This document shows positions 51,429 through 61,746 of a stretch of 64,000 bases of DNA, piece after piece. The notes beneath the pieces were generated by a model that saw nothing but the letters and a program-made list of their open reading frames with translations, did no database searches and was not told the origin of the DNA. Each line of letters opens with the position of its first letter. Position 1 is the first letter of the stretch. The DNA is taken from contig NZ_PDWR01000008.1 of assembly GCF_010211755.1 (NCBI RefSeq), positions 62,001 to 126,000 on the forward strand, in the 5' to 3' direction. The DNA is from Pseudoxanthomonas sangjuensis. Its GTDB lineage: Bacteria > Pseudomonadota > Gammaproteobacteria > Xanthomonadales > Xanthomonadaceae. Made by a program: the position numbers and the translations under genes.

Positions 51429-52613
51429 ATGACGGAAACATTCAAAGACGCCAAGGCAGGCGCCGCCCAATGGGCGCAAGGCACCCTCGCGATCCATGGC
51501 GGGCAGTCGCACGACCCCAGTACCGGCGCGGTGATGCCGCCGATCTACGCGACCAGCACCTATGCCCAGTCCAGCCCCGGCGTGCACCAGGGCTTCGAGT
51601 ATTCGCGCACGCAAAATCCCACGCGCTTTGCCTACGAGCGTTGCGTGGCTGCACTGGAAGGCGGCAGCCGTGGCTTCGCGTTCGCCTCGGGCATGGCCGC
51701 GACCTCGACCGTGCTGGAACTGCTGGACAGCGGCGACCATGTGGTCGCGATGGACGACATCTACGGCGGCAGCTATCGCCTGTTCGAGCGCGTGCGCAAG
51801 CGCAGCGCCGGGCTGGATTTCGGCTTCGTCGACCTGACCGACCTCGACGCGTTCGAGGCCGCGATCACCGCGAAGACGAAGCTGGTCTGGATCGAAACCC
51901 CGACCAACCCGATGTTGAAGGTCGTCGACATCGCCGCGGTTGCGGACGTTGCGCGCAAGCATGGCCTGCTGGTCGTGGTCGACAACACCTTCGCCTCGCC
52001 GATCCTGCAGCAGCCGCTGAAGCTCGGCGCGCACATCGTCGTGCACTCGGCCACCAAGTACCTCAACGGCCACTCCGACATGGTCGGCGGCGTCGCCGTG
52101 GTCGGCGACGACGCGGAGCTGACCGACAGGTTGGCCTTCCTGCAGAACTCCGTCGGCGCGGTGCAGGGGCCGTTCGACAGCTTCCTCGCCCTGCGCGGGC
52201 TGAAGACCCTGCACCTGCGGATGAAGGCGCATTGCGACAACGCGCTGGCGCTGGCGCAGTGGCTGGAAGCCCATCCGGCGGTCGAGAACGTCATCTACCC
52301 GGGCCTGGCATCGCACCCGCAGCACGCACTGGCCTCGCGGCAGATGCAGGGCTACGGCGGCATCATCTCGATCGAACTCAGGGGCGGCGCCGAAGCGGCA
52401 AAACGATTCTGCGAAAGCACCCGCCTGTTCACCCTCGCGGAATCGCTGGGCGGCGTCGAAAGCCTGGTCAACCTGCCGGCGCTGATGACGCATGCGTCGA
52501 TTCCGCCGGAACGCCGTGCGCGGTTGGGGATCAGCGATGGGCTGGTGAGGCTGAGTGTTGGGGTGGAGGTGGAGGGTGATTTGAGGGTCGACTTGGAGCG
52601 CGTGCTGTCGTGA
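51429..52613 (+). CDS. metB: Cystathionine gamma-lyase / gamma-synthase family enzyme
   Basis: A 394-residue PLP enzyme of the Cys/Met metabolism family. Motifs: THAIHGGQ-like TLAIHGGQSHDPSTGAVMPPIYATSTYAQ, FEYSRTQNPTRFAYERCVAALEGG (about 48-71), VWIETPTNPMLKVVDIAAVA and the PLP lysine in HIVVHSATKYLNGHSDMVGG (about 199-218). Together with Cbs it probably runs reverse transsulfuration to cysteine, as gamma-lyase. In Xanthomonas the homologue marks the left border of the LPS locus, and here too the next genes are Wzm and Wzt. Its stop codon overlaps the Wzm start. Confidence 0.92.
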   Translation: MTETFKDAKAGAAQWAQGTLAIHGGQSHDPSTGAVMPPIYATSTYAQSSPGVHQGFEYSRTQNPTRFAYERCVAALEGGSRGFAFASGMAATSTVLELLDSGDHVVAMDDIYGGSYRLFERVRKRSAGLDFGFVDLTDLDAFEAAITAKTKLVWIETPTNPMLKVVDIAAVADVARKHGLLVVVDNTFASPILQQPLKLGAHIVVHSATKYLNGHSDMVGGVAVVGDDAELTDRLAFLQNSVGAVQGPFDSFLALRGLKTLHLRMKAHCDNALALAQWLEAHPAVENVIYPGLASHPQHALASRQMQGYGGIISIELRGGAEAAKRFCESTRLFTLAESLGGVESLVNLPALMTHASIPPERRARLGISDGLVRLSVGVEVEGDLRVDLERVLS

Positions 52614-53449
52614 TCTCGAATCGAGAAATGCTGGAGGTCGGCGCCGGTTCGGGGGACCGAATAGGCGCGTTCTGGTCCGACTTGCGGCGCAGCCTGCGCA
52701 ATCCGGAATTCTGGGCTATGTCCAGCTGGATGGACATCTTGGTACGTGCCCGGCGTTCGCGCCTGGGAGCAATCTGGTTGCTGATGCCGTCGGCGATCTA
52801 CGTGTTCGGCATGGGTTCGATCTTTGCCGGCATGCAGGGAAAAAGTCTTGACGCGTTTGCGGCGCATGTTGCACTGGGCGTGATGGTGTTCAGAGGGTTG
52901 ATGTCCACTGTGATCGGCAGCGCTGGCATCTACGCCGCCAGTGCCTCGTTCATTCTGGATGGCCGGACTCGGCTGACAGATTACGTGTTGCAAGCTCTCG
53001 GCAAGTCATTCTTCGACTTCCTGATGTGCATTCCGGTTGCCTGCATTGCCCTGGTGCTGTTCGGCCACGTGGAATGGTTGGGGATCCTTGTGGCGCCATT
53101 AGCCCTGCTGGTCATTTATTTCAATGCGCTGTGGATCAGTGTGGTCCTGTCGCTGGCAGGTGCGCGCTTCCCTGACCTGGGGCAGCTTCTCAGCAATGTT
53201 TCGGTATTCATGTTCTTGTTAACCCCGATCCTGTGGCATCCCGAAGACATGCCCGCCGACAGCTTCCGGGGACAACTCATGCGAGCGAATCCGTTCTACC
53301 ATTATGTAGAGCTGTTCCGGGCCCCGATCCTCGGTGATCCCATCGAGCCGGCGACTTGCTGGTTCATGGGCGTGTCGACGTTGGTAGGCTTATTATTTGC
53401 CGCGTTTCTCTACCGGCGGTACGCGCGCTGGGTTCCGCTGTGGATATGA
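52610..53449 (+). CDS. wzm: O-antigen ABC transporter permease Wzm
   Basis: A 279-residue ABC-2 type permease with six hydrophobic segments from about residue 45. FWAMSSWMDILVRARRSRLGAIWLLMPSAIYVFGMG is the amphipathic entry helix and first membrane span typical of polysaccharide exporters; LTPILWHPEDMPADSFRGQLMRANPFYHYVELFRAPILG (about 204-242) is the conserved C-terminal periplasmic stretch. With Wzt it exports lipid-linked O polysaccharide. Start GTG 52610 overlaps the metB stop codon; ATG 52628 is an alternative. Base composition falls from here on. Confidence 0.9.
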   Translation: MISNREMLEVGAGSGDRIGAFWSDLRRSLRNPEFWAMSSWMDILVRARRSRLGAIWLLMPSAIYVFGMGSIFAGMQGKSLDAFAAHVALGVMVFRGLMSTVIGSAGIYAASASFILDGRTRLTDYVLQALGKSFFDFLMCIPVACIALVLFGHVEWLGILVAPLALLVIYFNALWISVVLSLAGARFPDLGQLLSNVSVFMFLLTPILWHPEDMPADSFRGQLMRANPFYHYVELFRAPILGDPIEPATCWFMGVSTLVGLLFAAFLYRRYARWVPLWI

Positions 53450-53453
53450 CGGT

Positions 53454-54626
53454 ATGAGTGCGCATATTCGCGTGGACAAGTTGAGTTTGGACGTGCCGAT
53501 GTATCTCCAAGGAGAAAGGGAGATAGCCGGCTGGGCCAGTCTATTCCTTGGGGCCGTCCTGGATCCGCCCAAGCGCAGGATAGCTCGGTTGCTCGACAAC
53601 CTTTCCTTCAACGTGGAGGAGGGCGACCGACTGGCCATTCTCGGGCGCAACGGCGCCGGCAAGAGCACATTGCTGCGCGTGCTGAATGGAGTTTATCAGC
53701 CCACCCAGGGCAGGCTGGAGGTGCAGGGCAGTTGTCAGGCGCTATTGAACATGTCACTTGGGTTCAATGGCGAAGCGACGGTACACGAGAACATCATCTT
53801 GCGTGGCGTAGCGATGGGCCTGGCCTCGGGCTTCCTCAAGAGCCAAGTTGCGCAAATCCTCGAATTCGCGGGATTGCAACGAAAGGCGCACCATCGGTTG
53901 AGGACGCTGTCCGCGGGGCAGAAGATGCGCCTCGGGTTTGCCATTTCCACGTCGGTACAGCACGACATCATGCTGATGGACGAGTGGGTCGGGGCCGGCG
54001 ACGCTGAATTCATGGAGAAAGCGAAGGTGCGCATGCAGAATCGGGTGGATGGAAGCAAGATCGTTGTTCTGGCCAGCCATAGCGTCGGTTTGTTGCGCGC
54101 GATTTGTAACAAGGGCATTCTGCTTGAGCAAGGTAGGTTGCTTTACGCAGGCGGCATCACCGATGCGCTAAAGGCCTACCACGATTTGTTGGCGGCCTTA
54201 CGCAAGGATCCGGAATATCGGGCTCCGGATCCTGAAATTCATTTGGCGGGCATCGTGTATGGTGCTGTCGAAGAAGTGTATTTCGACCGCGGGCAGCTCT
54301 GGCTTCGTGGATGGAGCGCTTGCACGGATGGGACCATCCCGCCCGGCTTGGTCGTGCAGGCGCACGGGCTACGCCATGCCGCCATCGAGCTGCAGCGCTA
54401 CCATCGCCCAGATGTGGTGCGGCATCTGGGCTTGAACGATGCGGCGTGCGGGTTCAGGGCAAGCTTCAACATCGATACGGTGGCAGTCCTGGGCGGGCAG
54501 GTTCAGGATTTCCAAGTATATGCAGGGCAGTCGCCGGAATCGGCATCCGTTCCGTTGCGTATTGCCGGTGGAGTCATGGAGCAGTTGGCTGGTGCCTCGG
54601 TATCTGTTGCTCCAACTAGGTCATAG
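53454..54626 (+). CDS. wzt: O-antigen ABC transporter ATPase Wzt with extra C-terminal domain
   Basis: A 390-residue ABC ATPase. Walker A GRNGAGKST (about 68-76), Q-loop region, signature LSAGQKMRLGFA (about 155) and Walker B IMLMDEW. The ATPase ends near 245. Residues about 264-378 are not the usual Wzt glycan-binding beta sandwich but a domain with LWLRGWSACTDG...PDVVRHLGLNDAACGFRASF, closely similar to parts of the methyltransferase and the large glycosyltransferase of this cluster. It is likely to decide which glycan or partner is recognised. Five bases separate it from the methyltransferase gene. Confidence 0.9.
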   Translation: MSAHIRVDKLSLDVPMYLQGEREIAGWASLFLGAVLDPPKRRIARLLDNLSFNVEEGDRLAILGRNGAGKSTLLRVLNGVYQPTQGRLEVQGSCQALLNMSLGFNGEATVHENIILRGVAMGLASGFLKSQVAQILEFAGLQRKAHHRLRTLSAGQKMRLGFAISTSVQHDIMLMDEWVGAGDAEFMEKAKVRMQNRVDGSKIVVLASHSVGLLRAICNKGILLEQGRLLYAGGITDALKAYHDLLAALRKDPEYRAPDPEIHLAGIVYGAVEEVYFDRGQLWLRGWSACTDGTIPPGLVVQAHGLRHAAIELQRYHRPDVVRHLGLNDAACGFRASFNIDTVAVLGGQVQDFQVYAGQSPESASVPLRIAGGVMEQLAGASVSVAPTRS

Positions 54627-54631
54627 ATCGC

Positions 54632-56035
54632 ATGGCACAATATCAATCCTTCCCCGATGCAGCGGGCGATTCGCGCACCCTCGAGAAGCTTAAGGCACTG
54701 AACCTGCCTCCGCTGAATGGGCGTACCTTCCTGGACGTCGGCTGCAACGAGGGCTTCTTCTGCGGTTACGCGCACTTCGATGGCGCTTCGCGTTCGGTGG
54801 GGCTGGATCGGTCCAGGGGCTTCATAGCGCGTGCGCGCTGCCGCTTTCCGCAATGCGAGTTTGCCGAGCGCAGCTGGGACCAGCTGCCGGACGGGCCATT
54901 CGATGTCATTCTGTTGGCGTCGGCGCTGCACTACGCCGATGACCAGCCCGCTCTCGTCCGCGCACTCATGTCGCGGCTGTCGCCGGACGGTCTGCTAGTG
55001 CTGGAAATGGGCATTATCTCGTCGCCCGAGGCCAAGTGGGTCAAGGTGAAACGCGGTATCGACGAGCGCTTCTTCCCCAGCATGCCGATGGTGAAGGAGC
55101 TGTTGCGGGGATACGCCTGGAAGTGGATCGGTCCGAGCATTGCGCAGGATGGAGACCCGGTGCCGCGGCACGTCATCCATGTCGCCCGCCAGCGGCCCAC
55201 GGCCTACCTGCTGATGCAGCCTCCCGCCTATGGCAAAACTACGATAGCGGAAGGCCTGTTTCGCCGTGCAGACATTCCGGTAGTGTCTGGAGACGACGTG
55301 ATCCAGCGAGTGGTGAAGGGTATGCGGGCCGCGCCGGAAGAATTGCGGGCTCTGCTGGAAGCAGACTATTCCCCATTCCGGCTCGACGAGACGATCCGCA
55401 AGGTATTCGCCGCAGGCAAGGGACGGAGCCTGGTGCAACTGTGGATAGAGGAGGCCGGTCCAGCCGATTTTGCAGTGGACGCGTACGTCCCGAGTGAATG
55501 GCACGATCTGGTGCGTAGCGGTCTGACCGATGCAGGTTACATGCCCGTGTCGCTGTACTGGGAGCGCGCGGGTACGAGCATGCAATCTGCGGAAGCGATA
55601 ACGGAGCGGGCGGATGCCTACTATGCATCGCTGGCAGATAGCGCTTCGCAGGGATTTGACGGGATGCCTTCCACCTATTCGGGTGGCGCCCGGGGCTTCG
55701 TCGACGAGGTGGATATGGCAGCCGACCGGCTACGTGTGCGTGGCTGGGCCGTGGATGAGGACGGCAAGGTACCCCGCTACCTGTCGGTACGGATCAACGG
55801 GCAGACGCGGATGGTGGATGTGTTCGAGCACCTGTTGCGGCACGACGTCCAGAAGCACCTGGGCTTGGACCATGCCTTGTGCGGCTATTCCTTCACCATT
55901 CCCCTGGATCCGGCGGCGAGCGTCGGCGGATTGGGAGCCATTGAAGTGCGTGCCGGCAACGACACGGAACGCATGGGGCCGGCGCTGCCGATTGCGGGGT
56001 CCCTGGCGAAGAGGCTTGCCGGTGGACGGCGTTAG
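54632..56035 (+). CDS. Methyltransferase / P-loop kinase-like / GWA-domain fusion protein
   Basis: A 467-residue protein with three parts. Residues 1-190: SAM-dependent methyltransferase (FLDVGCNEGFFCGYAHFDGASRSVGLDRS, DVILLASALHYADD). Residues about 195-320: YLLMQPPAYGKTTIAEGLFRRADIPVVSGDDVIQRVV, a P-loop kinase-like segment with GKTT though the first Walker glycine is missing. Residues about 351-455: GFVDEVDMAADRLRVRGWAVDEDGKVPR...RHDVQKHLGLDHALCGYSFTI, the same domain as in Wzt and the large glycosyltransferase. A capping role, methyl or phosphate-methyl on the O-antigen end as in other ABC-dependent systems, is a reasonable inference. Confidence 0.82.
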   Translation: MAQYQSFPDAAGDSRTLEKLKALNLPPLNGRTFLDVGCNEGFFCGYAHFDGASRSVGLDRSRGFIARARCRFPQCEFAERSWDQLPDGPFDVILLASALHYADDQPALVRALMSRLSPDGLLVLEMGIISSPEAKWVKVKRGIDERFFPSMPMVKELLRGYAWKWIGPSIAQDGDPVPRHVIHVARQRPTAYLLMQPPAYGKTTIAEGLFRRADIPVVSGDDVIQRVVKGMRAAPEELRALLEADYSPFRLDETIRKVFAAGKGRSLVQLWIEEAGPADFAVDAYVPSEWHDLVRSGLTDAGYMPVSLYWERAGTSMQSAEAITERADAYYASLADSASQGFDGMPSTYSGGARGFVDEVDMAADRLRVRGWAVDEDGKVPRYLSVRINGQTRMVDVFEHLLRHDVQKHLGLDHALCGYSFTIPLDPAASVGGLGAIEVRAGNDTERMGPALPIAGSLAKRLAGGRR

Positions 56036-56135
56036 GTCGGGTGATGGAAGACATGACGATGATGCAGATGGCTGTTTGCAAAGGCATGCCACCGTGCTTG
56101 CCAGCCCTCGTGCCTGACCATGTGGAGGAGGGGCA

Positions 56136-57929
56136 ATGCAATTGATTGTGCTGGGTATGCATCGCTCCGGGACCTCGGTCCTGGCAAGGGCGCTGAACTT
56201 GATGGGTGCGTATTTCGGGCCCGAAGGCATCAGCACCGGCGCCAATCCGGAGAATCCAAAGGGCTTTTGGGAGCGGCGTGACGTCAGGGCGTTGAACGAC
56301 TCGGTCCTCCATGGCGCGAACTGCGATTGGAACCGAGTCCTGAAGTTCGACCCGATAGCGCTTCCGGCGGCGCAGGTGGCCGATTTCGACAAGCGTGCCT
56401 CCAGCCTGATCCTGGAAATGGACGCCCACCGTCCCTGGCTGTTGAAGGAGCCCCGGCTATGTTTACTGTTGCCGCTATGGCGCCGTTGGCTGGAGGCGCC
56501 GGTCTGCATTCACATCTTCCGTAATCCGGTGGAAGTTGCTTCCAGCTTGCGTGTGCGTAACGAAATTCCAATCGACGCGGGTCTTGTCCTCTGGGATCGG
56601 TACGTTCGTTCTGCGATGGCGGCGTCTGATGGATTGCCTCAAGTAGTGGTGTCGCACCGGCGGCTGATGCAGGAGCCGGTTGCCGCGGTATCGCAACTAT
56701 TTCGCGATCTGACCAAGCTCGGCGTGCTCGGCTTGCGGGAGCCGAGCGGACACGAGGTCAATGCATTTGTGCAGGAAGATCTGTATCGCGAGCGGGAATC
56801 GCGCGAGGACCTGCAGAGATATGCAGACGCACCACAACTGGCGTTGTTCAAGGCGCTTGAAACAGGCCGTACGCCTCCGGTCAGGCTTATGGAGCAGTCA
56901 GTGGACATCGAGCCGCTTGCACGCTATGAAGCGGGGCTGCCTCCATTGAGTCTGTCCGGCAGGGATGCCAAGAAGCCGCAGGACGCAGAAGCTGCGGCAT
57001 TGCGTGGGCAATTGGCGTTGCGAGAGCAGGAAATCAGGTTTGTCCGGGAGATGTCCAGCAAGTTCGAGGCGGATATTAGGCGGCGTGATGAACTGCTCGG
57101 CAACATGGAGCGCGACCAGCGGAAGGCGCAGGAAACCATCGCGAAGCTGCGAGCAGATCTCGCGCAACGTGAGGACCGTGTTGCTATGCTGGAAGCATTG
57201 CAGGCTAAGCAGGCCCGGGAAGCAGAAACCGCGGTCACAGCCCTGCGCGAGCTCCGCGCCGAGCACGTAAAGCAAAATCTAGAGCTTGAGGCCGCGAAAC
57301 GTGAAGCCGACGACGCCACCTCGCAGCTAGAGCAGATGAAGTTGGCGCGAATCAGTGCGGAGCGCGTGGCAGACCTGCGCTTGCGTGACCTCTCGCGGAT
57401 GACGCGCATGCTGATGCAGCAGGACAACCAGTTGGCGCTGCTGAAGCGCGAAATCGAAGGCCTGGCCGACAGGGTGAAGATTGCGCGGAAGGCGCAGGGC
57501 GCGGCTGCGAGTCAGGCGGCGGATGCTGAGAAGTCGCGCCAGGCTGCAGAAACACAGGCAGCCAAACTGCAACACCAGCTCGACGCTGTCTTGCACAGCG
57601 CCACTTGGCGGATGGGGGCGCCTATCCGTGCGATGATGCGCTTTTTCAGGCGTCGACGAGGTGGCGCGCAGATCGGTGATGTCAAGCTGGTGCGTCAGTC
57701 GGAGTGGTTCGATGCTGACTGGTATTTGCGTCGCTATCCCGATGTTGCACAGAACGGAGTGGATCCGGCCGAGCACTACCTCGGCTTCGGTGGCAAGGAG
57801 GGGCGTAATCCAGGCCCGAAGTTCAACACTGCGCGCTATCTGGATATCAACCGGGATGTCGCCGAATCAGGAATGAACGCGCTGGTGCACTACCTGAGGT
57901 ACGGCAGGAATGAGGGGCGGCAATGCTAG
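56136..57929 (+). CDS. Sulfotransferase-like / coiled-coil / surface-GT repeat protein
   Basis: A 597-residue protein. Residues 1-260 are a PAPS-dependent sulfotransferase-like domain: LIVLGMHRSGTSVLARALNLMGAYFG (3-28, 5'-phosphosulfate loop) and CIHIFRNPVEVASSLRVRN (3'-phosphate-binding). Residues about 285-490 are a long coiled coil rich in Glu, Arg and Gln. Residues about 521-597 carry two copies of a WYL-type motif (SEWFDADWYLRRYPDVAQNG...PAEHYLGFGGKEGRNPGP and ARYLDINRDVAESGMNALVHYLRYGRNEGR). The same repeat starts the next gene. GGAGGAGGGGC precedes the ATG. It is probably part of the glycan assembly machinery. Confidence 0.8.
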   Translation: MQLIVLGMHRSGTSVLARALNLMGAYFGPEGISTGANPENPKGFWERRDVRALNDSVLHGANCDWNRVLKFDPIALPAAQVADFDKRASSLILEMDAHRPWLLKEPRLCLLLPLWRRWLEAPVCIHIFRNPVEVASSLRVRNEIPIDAGLVLWDRYVRSAMAASDGLPQVVVSHRRLMQEPVAAVSQLFRDLTKLGVLGLREPSGHEVNAFVQEDLYRERESREDLQRYADAPQLALFKALETGRTPPVRLMEQSVDIEPLARYEAGLPPLSLSGRDAKKPQDAEAAALRGQLALREQEIRFVREMSSKFEADIRRRDELLGNMERDQRKAQETIAKLRADLAQREDRVAMLEALQAKQAREAETAVTALRELRAEHVKQNLELEAAKREADDATSQLEQMKLARISAERVADLRLRDLSRMTRMLMQQDNQLALLKREIEGLADRVKIARKAQGAAASQAADAEKSRQAAETQAAKLQHQLDAVLHSATWRMGAPIRAMMRFFRRRRGGAQIGDVKLVRQSEWFDADWYLRRYPDVAQNGVDPAEHYLGFGGKEGRNPGPKFNTARYLDINRDVAESGMNALVHYLRYGRNEGRQC

Positions 57930-57945
57930 AACTAAAGGCTGCAAG

Positions 57946-60900
57946 ATGAGCATAGACACCATGGCCGAGGACATTCGCTTGGTGCGCAACTCTGGGTTGT
58001 TTGACGCCAAGTGGTACTTGCAGGCATATCCAGACGTGATGCTGGCGGGGCTGGACCCTGTCGAGCATTACCTGCGTTATGGCGCCAATTTGGAGCGTAA
58101 TCCGGGGCCCGGATTCGACACCGCGCGTTATCTGCGCGAGAACCCTGAGCTATTTCGGTCCGGGGTCAATCCGTTGGTGCACTTCCTGCGCCGCCCCAGC
58201 TCACATCGTGGCTCACACGCTAAACCTCCGGAAGATGCCGCGCAACAACAAAGGGGTCTGCGCGGTTACTTGGACCGACTGGACGAGAAGGGCTTCGCCG
58301 GCTGGGCCGTGGACGAAGAGCATCCGGGCGAGCCGGTCGAACTGAGCGTATTCGCCGATGGCGAGCACCTGGTGGATCTGGTGACTATGGAGGGGCGCCC
58401 GGATCTGTCCCGACTGGGGTTGAGCGGTGCGCGCGCAGGCTTCGCACACACTTGGGCATCGTACGTGTTCCCGACGGGTACTGAAATCGACGTGCGCTTC
58501 AAGCGATCGGGGTGGTCGCTGGCCAAAAGTCCTCGTGTGATCGTGCACGGGCCGATACCAAACCTTGGAGAGCGTTCGCTCACGTTCGAAACGTATGTGG
58601 AAGGGCGACAGGCTCCGGTATCGGTCATCGTCCCCATCTTTAATGCCTACGAAGCGGTCTCGGAATGCCTGGCGTCGCTTTATCGCCACACGCCGCAGTA
58701 CGCGGAAATCCTCCTGATTGATGATTGCAGCACCGATCCCAGAATCGCTGATCTTATCGAGGAATACGCATCGCGGCCGCGAACCCAGGCGACTGTCAAC
58801 GAGGTGAATCTCGGCTACACGCGCACGATCAATAAGGGCATCGGAATGGCGTCCGGGCGCGATGTCGTCCTGCTCAATAGCGATACGCTGGTTACCGCAC
58901 GCTGGCTTGATGCACTGCGTTATTGCGCCTATGCAAGGCCGCGCGTCGCTACGGTGACGGCGCTGTCAAACAACGCTGGCGCATTTTCCGCTCCCGTTTT
59001 CGGTATGCATAACCCGTGTCCTCCGCATCTAGGCAATGATGGGTTCGCCCGTGTGGCGACCGGCGCTACTGCTGGGAAGCTGCTGGAAGTGCCTACCGGC
59101 AACGGTTTCTGCATGTACATCCGTCGCGCTGCGCTCGATACGCTCGGCGGATTTGACGAGGCGCGTTTCCCGCGTGGTTATGGCGAAGAGAACGATTTCT
59201 GCATGCGAGCCCTGCGTCGGGGCTGGAGGAACATCGTTTCTGACAAAGCATACGTTCTGCACAAACGCTCACAGAGCTTCCAGGGCGAGAAGGAATCGCT
59301 TATCAAGGCCGGCGCGGAGCAACTGGAGGTGTTGTATCCCGAGTATCGGCTGCTGACCGCGCGGTTCCGTGACATAGAGTTCACTCGCATGCGCAAGCGG
59401 ATTGGCGCTGCGCTGGCAAGCGGAACGCCCAATACGCTTCCGCGGATATTGTTCGTCATTTCGACCCAGACAGGAGGGACACCACAGACCAACCTCGATC
59501 TCATGCGCGCAGTGTCGGATCAGTACCATGGCTGGCTGCTGCGGTGTGAGTCGCGCGTGATCACGCTATCGGAGTTGGTCGACGGCGTGCTGGTCGTACG
59601 CGAAACGCATTCGCTGGAGCGTGTAGTAGATCCGGTCACGCACCGCTCGGACGGATACGATCAGATCGTTGCGGACATCCTCTATCGGTATTCGATCGAG
59701 TTGCTGCACATCAGGCACATTGCCTGGCACAGCCTCAATCTGCCAGCGATTGCCAAGTCGCAGAACATCCCTGTCGTGTATTCCTTCCACGACTTCTATT
59801 CGATCTGTCCCTCGCTGAATCTGCTCGACGGCGACCTGAAGTACTGTGGTGGTCGCTGCACCCCTGGCGAGGGCGATTGCCAGAACTCGCTGTGGCCCGA
59901 GACCAGCATGCCGCGCCTGAAGCATCGCTACGTCAAGCGCTGGCAGGAAATGTTCAGGGAGTTCCTAGGCCACTGCGACAGTTTCATTACCACCGCGCCT
60001 TCCGCTGCGCGGACGATCGAGGCGGCGTATCCCCAACTGGAAGGCCGCATCATGGTCATTCCCCATGGCCGGGATTTCGAGGCCTTCGGTGACTACGCCC
60101 GGTTCTCGCCAAACGAGGGTCGCATCCGTATTCTCATTCCCGGAAACATCGGGCCATCCAAGGGTAGCGAACTCCTCCGCGAGATGGCCGAGCTCGACAC
60201 GGCCGGCAAGTACGAATTCCATTTCCTGGGCTCTACGTTGGGCACGCTCAAGGGCGTGGGTGTGCATCACGGCCCCTACGAGCGCGGCAACTTCCATAGC
60301 ATGGTGCGAAAGATCGCTCCTGCATTCGGGGTGGTCTTCTCAATATGGCCCGAAACCTACTGCCATACGCTCACCGAGATGTGGTCGTGCGGCATTCCCG
60401 TGCTGGGCATGGACATCGGCGCGGTCGGCGACCGGATCCGCGCCAGTGGCGCGGGCTGGCTGTTGAGCCACGAGGTCTCACCTAAGGAGGCGCTGCAACG
60501 TCTGGATGAAGTCGTGGCCGATGCCGCCGGATACGCGCAGCGCCTTGCGTCAGTTAAGACATGGCAGGCAAGTGAGGCGCATTGGAACGATACTGCGACG
60601 ATGGCGTTCCAGTACCGCCGGATATACGGGCGCCTGCTCAACCGTGGCGAGCGCGAGCCCATGCGTCTGGGTATGCTGTATCGGCAGAAGCCCTACGTTC
60701 CGGCGACCGCATACATCCGCGTGCTCAAGCCCTGGGTCAGCGCCCTAGGCGAAACTGCCGACGCGCGCGCAGTGGATGCGCGCTGGTTGTTGGCAGGCGG
60801 TGTCGACCACATCGACGCACTGCTGATCCAGCGCAACTCGGTCCCCGCTGACCTAGTGCCTCGACTGGTGGCTTGCCTGCGAGAGCGTCGGATGCCGTAT

Positions 60901-61746
60901 ATCTACGAGATCGACGACCCATTGTGGGACTTGCCGGAAGATCATCCGGACCATAAGTACTATGCCGAACAGGCACAGTCGATTGTCATGCTGATCGAGA
61001 ATGCATCGCTGGTGACGACGTCAATGCAGACGCTGGCTGAGCGCTTGTCGGTGTTGAATCCGCGTACGGAGATCGTCCCCAACTCACTTGATCAGAGCCT
61101 GTGGAACGCGCCGCTCTCCGAGGGCCGTATCGCCGAGATCTTGGCAGAGCACTCATTGGACCATGATCGACCGCGCATCCTCTACATGGGCACTTCGTCG
61201 CACCGCGGAGACCTGCAGATGGTCCTGCCGGCGATCAATGCTGTGCTGGGCGTGCGCCCGGAAGTGGAGTTCATCCAGATTGGCGGTGGCGAACCGCTAC
61301 CCTGCGCACGCCTTATCGAGGTACCTGAATCCTGCTCCACCTATCCCGAGTTCGTCACATGGTTCCGTGCTATCTGCTCGGCAGCCACGCTCGCACTGGC
61401 ACCGTTGCGCGACAGCGAGTTCAACACGATGAAATCCGACATCAAGGCGCTGGACTATGCCTTGGCTGGCGTACCGGCGGTCTTCAGTGCGGTCGGTCCC
61501 TACCAGATCGCCATCGTGCACGGCCAGACGGGCCTACTGGCGAAGAACGAAACCTCAAGCTGGATTCGCAACATTTCGCTGCTGCTCGATGACGCAAAGC
61601 TGCGCGATAGGCTGCGTGCCCAGGCACTCGCATGGGCGCAGGAGCGGGGTGGCCAGACCGAGGGCCGGCTCCAACGGATCGCCGCCGAGGCGTTCGGCTG
61701 GAAGGTCAGGGGTGATGGCGGCAACACAGAGGGCCTGGTCCCATGA
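57946..61746 (+). CDS. Giant multidomain glycosyltransferase
   Basis: A 1266-residue cytoplasmic enzyme. Order: WYL-type repeats (12-85, FDAKWYLQAYPDVMLAG...), GWA domain (103-200, GYLDRLDEKGFAGWAVDEEHPGEPVEL...), GT2 domain (about 220-480, VSVIVPIFNAYEAVSECLASLYRH, LLIDDCSTD, LLNSDTLV), first GT4-like domain (about 500-895, RILFVISTQTGGTPQTN..., WPETYCHTLTEMWSCGIPVLGMD), second GT4-like domain (about 905-1250, YIYEIDDPLWDLPEDHP, YMGTSSHRGDLQMVLPA). It may add two or three sugars of the repeat unit. Start ATG 57946 has AAGG upstream. It ends in an ATGA overlap with wbqC. Confidence 0.87.
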   Translation: MSIDTMAEDIRLVRNSGLFDAKWYLQAYPDVMLAGLDPVEHYLRYGANLERNPGPGFDTARYLRENPELFRSGVNPLVHFLRRPSSHRGSHAKPPEDAAQQQRGLRGYLDRLDEKGFAGWAVDEEHPGEPVELSVFADGEHLVDLVTMEGRPDLSRLGLSGARAGFAHTWASYVFPTGTEIDVRFKRSGWSLAKSPRVIVHGPIPNLGERSLTFETYVEGRQAPVSVIVPIFNAYEAVSECLASLYRHTPQYAEILLIDDCSTDPRIADLIEEYASRPRTQATVNEVNLGYTRTINKGIGMASGRDVVLLNSDTLVTARWLDALRYCAYARPRVATVTALSNNAGAFSAPVFGMHNPCPPHLGNDGFARVATGATAGKLLEVPTGNGFCMYIRRAALDTLGGFDEARFPRGYGEENDFCMRALRRGWRNIVSDKAYVLHKRSQSFQGEKESLIKAGAEQLEVLYPEYRLLTARFRDIEFTRMRKRIGAALASGTPNTLPRILFVISTQTGGTPQTNLDLMRAVSDQYHGWLLRCESRVITLSELVDGVLVVRETHSLERVVDPVTHRSDGYDQIVADILYRYSIELLHIRHIAWHSLNLPAIAKSQNIPVVYSFHDFYSICPSLNLLDGDLKYCGGRCTPGEGDCQNSLWPETSMPRLKHRYVKRWQEMFREFLGHCDSFITTAPSAARTIEAAYPQLEGRIMVIPHGRDFEAFGDYARFSPNEGRIRILIPGNIGPSKGSELLREMAELDTAGKYEFHFLGSTLGTLKGVGVHHGPYERGNFHSMVRKIAPAFGVVFSIWPETYCHTLTEMWSCGIPVLGMDIGAVGDRIRASGAGWLLSHEVSPKEALQRLDEVVADAAGYAQRLASVKTWQASEAHWNDTATMAFQYRRIYGRLLNRGEREPMRLGMLYRQKPYVPATAYIRVLKPWVSALGETADARAVDARWLLAGGVDHIDALLIQRNSVPADLVPRLVACLRERRMPYIYEIDDPLWDLPEDHPDHKYYAEQAQSIVMLIENASLVTTSMQTLAERLSVLNPRTEIVPNSLDQSLWNAPLSEGRIAEILAEHSLDHDRPRILYMGTSSHRGDLQMVLPAINAVLGVRPEVEFIQIGGGEPLPCARLIEVPESCSTYPEFVTWFRAICSAATLALAPLRDSEFNTMKSDIKALDYALAGVPAVFSAVGPYQIAIVHGQTGLLAKNETSSWIRNISLLLDDAKLRDRLRAQALAWAQERGGQTEGRLQRIAAEAFGWKVRGDGGNTEGLVP

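Follow-up and report, generated by a model that had tools for sequence, protein, structure and literature searches.

Three enzymes of one surface-polysaccharide gene cluster of Pseudoxanthomonas sangjuensis (family Xanthomonadaceae) carry copies of a single domain of about 95-120 residues, in which a GW pair, an R-x-D-V motif and a GF pair follow one another. The cluster lies in a stretch of 64,000 nucleotides (contig NZ_PDWR01000008.1, positions 62,001 to 126,000), referred to below as the window, whose own numbering is used throughout; all features described are on the + strand. Copy 1 lies at the C terminus of the Wzt-like ATPase of an ATP-binding cassette (ABC) exporter (amino acids (aa) 260-380; 54231..54593), copy 2 at the C terminus of a fusion that joins a methyltransferase (MT) to a P-loop kinase-like part (aa 346-464; 55667..56023), and copy 3, of a diverged subfamily that we call the GT type, in a giant glycosyltransferase (GT; aa 112-209; 58243..58536). 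All three rest on blastp and profiles, and copies 1 and 3 also on structure models.

The reading that we favour, and whose chances of being right or wrong we regard as evenly balanced, is that the three segments form one undescribed family of immunoglobulin-like (Ig-like) domains, which serves in the manner of a carbohydrate-binding module (CBM) as an accessory on surface-polysaccharide enzymes, one of which caps the chain while another reads the cap. The fusion would place a cap, by analogy methyl phosphate, on the lipid-linked O-polysaccharide at its non-reducing end, and the domain copy of the fusion would hold the growing chain end for capping; the Wzt copy would read the cap and so restrict export to finished chains, and the GT copy, from the more distant subfamily, would hold the chain for the polymerase. 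The finishing enzyme and the exporter may, that is, recognise the chain end by related domains.

One domain on three enzymes

The Wzt and MT copies are plainly related. In blastp, Wzt aa 265-380 aligned with fusion aa 350-464 at E 2.8e-14 (34% over 116 aa), and the score of this pair, 158, was reached by 0 of 2000 shuffles, the highest of which scored 56. The giant GT (aa 116-181) matched the fusion at E 3e-4 (36% over 72 aa), with a score of 75 that was likewise reached by 0 of 2000 shuffles (highest 48). The direct comparison of Wzt with the GT copy gave a 17-aa match alone (E 0.61), and its score of 42 was equalled or beaten by 16 of 2000 shuffles. Because this pairwise similarity does not stand out, the GT copy is joined to the others through the MT copy and through profiles. 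A profile built from Wzt and MT copies only detects the GT copy in a search of the giant GT protein alone (i-Evalue 1.2e-5), while a GT-type profile with no Wzt or MT copy inside it detects the window's MT copy in a search of the whole genome (E 4.6e-7). One profile-profile comparison set 20 aligned GT-type sequences against 38 aligned Wzt/MT sequences, with no GT copy among the latter, and gave a probability of 97.7% and E 1.5e-12. It is evident from these profiles that the GT copy is a diverged subfamily of the same domain. A three-row profile run over the genome found exactly these three copies at E <= 0.01. A fourth place stood at E 0.29.

In every alignment of the domain, the GW pair, the R-x-D and the GF region show little or no variation. 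The reference set lists 43 sequences, of which 36 entered alignment A3 and 7 weaker ones (L029-L034 and a second L025 frame; L and G numbers are our own designations of loci and genomes) were left out. A first-pass annotation of the window had located segments in the same three proteins and had taken them for one domain on otherwise unrelated enzymes, and both claims hold in the comparisons above.

Predicted fold and known families

Structure prediction, which had been proposed as a check on the unity of the domain, gave similar models for the Wzt copy (predicted local distance difference test, pLDDT, 89.3; predicted TM-score, pTM, 0.81) and the GT copy (pLDDT 89.8, pTM 0.79), and both copies are confidently modelled as Ig-like beta sandwiches. 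In both models, two long strands are followed by two or three shorter ones, a short helix lies over the R-x-D-V motif, and further strands come after it; the Wzt model additionally has a second short helix and a final helix.

Each Pfam or NCBIfam model matched at most one of 42 members of the Wzt/MT type (best E 0.0037 and 0.042, respectively); for 20 members of the GT type, the same held with Pfam and PHROGs (best 0.031 and 0.017). This is in keeping with the initial remark that the domain has no described name. A literature search of limited coverage found no publication naming it. Amidase 8c4d is a possible relative in the PDB (E 0.037, or 0.72 for the best single stretch).

Among solved folds, the Wzt copy comes nearest to the N-terminal domains of the S. 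aureus teichoic-acid polymerases TarK and TarL (Foldseek E 1.9e-4, probability 1.00; VIA Z 7.6, root-mean-square deviation (rmsd) 5.1, 93 residues aligned), and then to the teichoic-acid glycosyltransferase RmlT (Z 5.4, rmsd 5.5, 112 aligned); with Z < 8, such matches may reflect mere arrangement. The TarL/TarK domain is presumably, as here, an accessory on an enzyme that extends a lipid-linked polymer, and against the Wzt copy it has 13-17% identity and a TM-score < 0.5. The fold matches of the GT copy are general ones of Ig, fibronectin type III (Fn3) and CBM-like type, none of them at E <= 0.001 in Foldseek.

The domain and Wzt_C

To our knowledge, Wzt_C is the only domain family through which ABC exporters have been found to read the end of a finished chain. 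The exporter in the window consists of a wzm-like ABC-2 permease (52610..53449; Pfam ABC2_membrane, E 4e-11) and the wzt-like ATPase of 390 aa (53454..54626; Pfam ABC_tran, E 6.6e-23), which matches the NCBIfam Wzt/RfbE model at E 1.9e-53 with 181 bits, below the model cut-off of 400. The domain lies C-terminal to the ATPase, in the same place as Wzt_C elsewhere, and this position agrees with the earlier suggestion that the Wzt C terminus is the place of a glycan-selecting domain.

Wzt_C itself (PF14524) had no match at E <= 1 in the window's Wzt and none at E <= 0.001 in the genome. At E <= 0.001, it was found in none of the 16 family genomes that have both the Wzt and the MT copies (G000, G011, G012, G028, G054, G063, G065, G070, G093, G109, G119, G133, G158, G162, G201 and G230) compared with 176 of the 231 other family genomes (Fisher p 6e-10, which overstates independence because the genomes are related). 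Matches to Wzt_C are present in 9 of the 12 genomes with the domain behind Wzt and no MT-kinase (the fusion and its relatives), in 4 of six non-family genomes with the domain on the fusion only, and in all 4 genomes searched from the 11 loci whose fusion has a diverged tail. No Wzt_C structure appeared among the fold matches listed for the domain, which proves nothing.

The best reading of these sequence data is that the domain in Wzt has replaced Wzt_C, and the MT-bearing genomes lack Wzt_C, which suggests that the domain performs its task there. The two are alike in their place behind the ATPase, in size and in being beta sandwiches, by prediction in the case of the present domain, with Wzt_C represented by E. 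coli O9a and Aquifex aeolicus, and they alternate between family genomes. They differ in that the present domain also sits on other enzymes of the same cluster. In the published account, the fold of Wzt_C is a jelly roll whose C-terminal strands are exchanged (PMC9445017); for the Wzt copy, a beta sandwich is predicted. The account of Wzt_C also describes the recognition of a methylated cap by the carbohydrate-binding domain of Wzt, and reports that this domain, when provided by itself in trans, restores export (PMC9445017).

A candidate chain terminator

The fusion protein (467 aa; 54632..56035) was recognised from Pfam matches and a 13-sequence alignment. Its aa 34-124 match an S-adenosylmethionine (SAM) methyltransferase (Methyltransf_11, E 2.5e-11), and the motif FLD.GCNEG is conserved in all 13 aligned sequences, that of the window among them. 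The middle (aa 186-320; 55187..55591) looks like a P-loop kinase by weak profile matches: aa 197-263 match AAA_33 at E 0.0014, below the family cut-off, 8 of 14 sequences match AAA_33 at E <= 0.01, and a profile search of the PDB retrieved adenylate kinase 9 (5.5e-7), zeta toxin (5.3e-5) and many other P-loop proteins. With a methyltransferase, a P-loop kinase-like part and the domain, the fusion resembles a methyltransferase-kinase terminator with another type of kinase, and we propose by analogy that it is a chain-end capping enzyme similar to the methyl-phosphate chain terminators.

Chain capping is established for WbdD (PMC3482155) and cap reading for Wzt_C (PMC9445017). In E. coli O9a wbdD mutants, chains are synthesised and export fails (PMC3482155). 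WbdD is like the fusion in combining a methyltransferase with a kinase and in making the chain end competent for export; it differs in its eukaryotic-type kinase and its coiled coil (PMC3482155), and it was not among the 8 PDB sequences matched by a profile of the fusion at E <= 1e-6. The closer likeness in architecture, drawn from the published description alone, is to ORF6 of Klebsiella pneumoniae O7, a terminator with a methyltransferase, a kinase, an Ig-like CBM and a coiled coil (PMC11231755), where an N-terminal methyltransferase is likewise followed by a kinase and then an Ig-like domain. Its kinase resembles AmiN, that of the fusion a P-loop kinase, and its coiled coil has no counterpart seen in the fusion; its authors stated in 2024 that they knew of no other terminator with an Ig-like CBM (PMC11231755).

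WxcB of X. campestris has been reported as similar to WbdD, and it is through this published similarity only that we liken it to the fusion as a methyltransferase with a kinase. An X. campestris wxcB mutant had lipopolysaccharide without O-antigen and with some rhamnose left, polar effects not being excluded; in X. euvesicatoria, no such effect was seen (PMC4878081). Among 56 loci with MT-kinase relatives, none carries Xanthomonas in its title. In one relative (L185:8285-9670), the kinase-like part and the domain are kept, and the methyltransferase part is unrecognised by the MT profile; this protein would perhaps add a phosphate-only cap.

Distribution across genomes and loci

The three-row profile (E <= 0.01, with weak matches counted) found the domain in 39 of 247 family genomes. 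The Wzt/MT profile at E <= 0.001 picked out 6 genomes among 369 of the class and 7 among 398 of the phylum, our own genome counted in each. A scan of contigs with the fusion yielded the 56 MT-kinase loci, in 24 of which the domain is present on the fusion at E < 1e-15. Eleven further loci (L058, L060-L064 and L066-L070) have a diverged fusion tail, and profile comparison joins these tails, aligned as a group, to the domain with a probability of 96.4% against the GT type and 87.3% against the Wzt/MT type. The association of the domain with the MT-kinase extends over a wide range; in the Desulfovibrio relatives L074-L076, the fusion ends in a different repeat.

The domain-bearing Wzt is the next gene upstream of the MT-kinase in 16 of 17 named Xanthomonadaceae loci, and in the seventeenth, L039, it lies about 12 kb away. 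In six relatives outside the family (L045, L052, L054, L055, L056 and L065), the fusion is the sole match in the genome to the Wzt/MT profile, GT-type copies not being sought there. Two further observations concern single loci or groups. In L176 (4810-5445), the Wzt domain is found with the ATPase part in another frame, so that wzt is broken or frameshifted. Giant proteins with about three tandem domain copies each adjoin MT relatives in alphaproteobacterial records (L078:4884-8051, L079:5530-8910 and L080:616-3390).

Comparison of the Wzt and MT copies

Over 17 loci, the window included, the identity between the Wzt and MT copies was 26.1% within a locus and 26.4% between loci (permutation p 0.66), and the divergences of the two were hardly correlated (r 0.12). 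They are two old paralogues with no sign of exchange. The candidate idea that they co-evolve as a docking pair is left unsupported by these figures. The residues conserved in each also differ: R307, C332 and R369 in Wzt (window positions 54372, 54447 and 54558), and in the MT copies a glutamine after R-x-D-V and a histidine before GF. This column comparison used 19 Wzt copies, including that of L184, and 26 MT copies, ten Wzt copies without an MT-kinase being left out.

These data bear on the part of the first-pass annotation that saw the domain as a docking or glycan-recognition module tying export, chain-end modification and synthesis together. In the docking version, the copies would bind each other or a common partner and hold the exporter, the capping enzyme and the polymerase in one membrane complex, with no glycan contact. 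The presence of several copies in one cluster, the adjacency of the Wzt and MT genes in 16 of 17 named loci and the recruitment of the polymerase by the non-catalytic end of E. coli O9a WbdD (PMC3482155) would fit such a complex, which we nevertheless think unlikely: the copies within a locus show neither mutual similarity nor correlated divergence, in six genomes the MT copy is the sole match to the Wzt/MT profile, and the Wzt of the 16 MT-bearing genomes would be left with no cap reader, Wzt_C being absent. Of the two alternatives in the annotation, glycan recognition is probably the better and docking the poorer. The idea of one module tying the three functions together is not borne out: against it stand the same identities, the six genomes in which only the MT copy matches the Wzt/MT profile, the 12 genomes without an MT-kinase and the separate subfamily of the GT copy.

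The 30 Wzt copies fall into 18 with an MT-kinase and 12 without. The former keep R307 in 17, C332 in all 18 and R369 in 17 (K in one), and C332 is kept in 1 of the 12 latter; since 10 of these 12 form one clade, the contrast amounts to few independent events. A related idea, that the Wzt domain becomes free to change once the MT gene is lost, had a split outcome. It fits L174, where the equivalents of C332 and R369 are lost and the domain branch is the longest, the ATPase branch being the longest too; it does not fit L184, which is MT-less inside the MT-bearing Wzt clade and has the R307/C332/R369 signature unchanged.

When a tree was rooted on the GT type, 28 of the 29 labelled Wzt copies grouped together (91/95) within a grade of MT copies (the L186 Wzt copy was omitted from the tree and the residue table). 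This is the pattern expected if the domain had been captured from the terminator. The fork critical for capture has low support (82/68), and in approximately unbiased (AU) tests neither a tree with all MT copies as a clade (p 0.13) nor one with all Wzt copies as a clade (p 0.25) was rejected. We suggest, tentatively and as the less probable side of the question, that the chain-end-binding domain of an MT-P-loop-kinase terminator was copied onto Wzt in Xanthomonadaceae and displaced Wzt_C, which would make the writer and the reader of the cap paralogous.

The GT-type subfamily

The giant glycosyltransferase (1278 aa; 57910..61746) has GT2 and GT4-type parts (Glycos_transf_2, E 2e-16; Glyco_trans_1_4, E 1.9e-13; Glyco_transf_4, E 1.7e-10). 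Judged by sequence, its domain copy represents a separate and wider-spread subfamily, found in 19 of 299 genomes of the phylum, our own counted. Parent frames numbered 33, many of them doubles from overlapping loci, and 20 were scanned with Pfam: 8 were GT2 proteins, 2 sulfotransferases, 1 a methyltransferase and 1 a radical SAM protein, and 8 had no match at 1e-5. In MT-bearing loci, the GT type is optional: besides the window, full matches occur in L038, L047, L049 and L053, and in the L048 genome a full match lies on a different contig.

Some giant GTs carry two or three tandem domain copies. The proteins of L144, L145, L147 and L148 (248-285 aa) combine a single GT-type copy with a middle that looks helical and a hydrophobic stretch at the C terminus, and by eye look membrane-anchored; one Pfam-less GT-type protein looks secreted, again by eye. 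Such hosts, together with the radical SAM protein and the tandem copies, are what one would expect of an Ig-like spacer or stabiliser of general use, which polysaccharide enzymes and other envelope proteins acquired on repeated occasions and which has no ligand common to them all. We hold this to be improbable, given that the GW, R-x-D and GF region is nearly invariant, that R307, C332 and R369 are kept in 17, 18 and 17 of the 18 Wzt copies that accompany an MT-kinase, and that the lack of Wzt_C in MT-bearing genomes suggests that the domain carries out the work of Wzt_C.

Evidence weighing against capping and cap reading

Several results count against the capping and cap-reading proposal. Profile-profile comparison revealed no sequence-level kinship of the domain with Wzt_C (probability 0.7%). 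Ig-like sandwiches are common, the Z values of the fold matches may reflect no more than arrangement, and TarL/TarK are absent from the fold matches listed for the GT copy. Within a locus, the Wzt and MT copies resemble each other no more than random pairs do, and they conserve partly different residues, so that they need not bind the same thing. In 12 family genomes, one of them with a broken wzt frame, the domain stands behind Wzt with no MT-kinase match anywhere, so that its ligand is not always the MT-kinase product, and the unchanged signature of L184 belongs with these cases.

The last point concerns the coiled coil. Terminators of this pathway are described with a coiled-coil ruler (PMC11231755), and by a crude residue test none was seen in the fusion, where the longest run of residues other than P, G, W and C spans 26; in the neighbouring sulfotransferase it spans 119. 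It is in this next gene's protein (56136..57929; Pfam Sulfotransfer_3, E 3e-6), with its long coiled-coil-like middle, SMC-type matches at aa 284-488 and a C-terminal YPDV...EGR repeat, that the supposed mark of a terminator is found; no copy of the domain was found in it. The sulfotransferase could then be the real terminator, with Wzt reading its product, perhaps a sulfated end, and the MT-kinase modifying something else. A relative directly follows Wzt in the MT-less loci L174 (8340-10343) and L184 (10361-12958), inside the MT-bearing Wzt clade, as this explanation would have it. We rate it as very unlikely, since only 7 (L036, L037, L048, L049, L050, L053 and L077) of 18 family MT-kinase loci (the 17 named and L077) have a relative that includes the sulfotransferase part within the stretches covered, which reach at most 10 kb downstream, and further relatives may lie beyond them.

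Neighbouring genes and a second repeat

Upstream of wzm lie a pyridoxal phosphate (PLP)-dependent gene with a CBS domain and a gene of Cys/Met metabolism; downstream of the giant GT come a WbqC-like gene, a GT2 and another sulfotransferase. The C terminus of the sulfotransferase next to the fusion (57678-57926) and the N terminus of the giant GT (about 57973-58203) share a further accessory repeat of roughly 70-80 aa, with the consensus FDxxWYLxxYPDVxxxGxDPxxHYLxxGxxEGRxP, for which Pfam gave no match. By BLAST, it is present in 32 of the 56 MT-kinase loci, and by eye the terminal stretch of the Desulfovibrio MT-kinases resembles it.

Implications

In the capping and cap-reading proposal, the domain that replaced Wzt_C has relatives on glycosyltransferases and on the proposed capping enzyme. 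If the domain binds glycan, it would be a second and independent solution to cap reading, non-homologous to Wzt_C, and it could have arisen by capture of a domain from the terminator. As a module so far without a name, it would also aid the annotation of large polysaccharide enzymes whose termini are at present blank.

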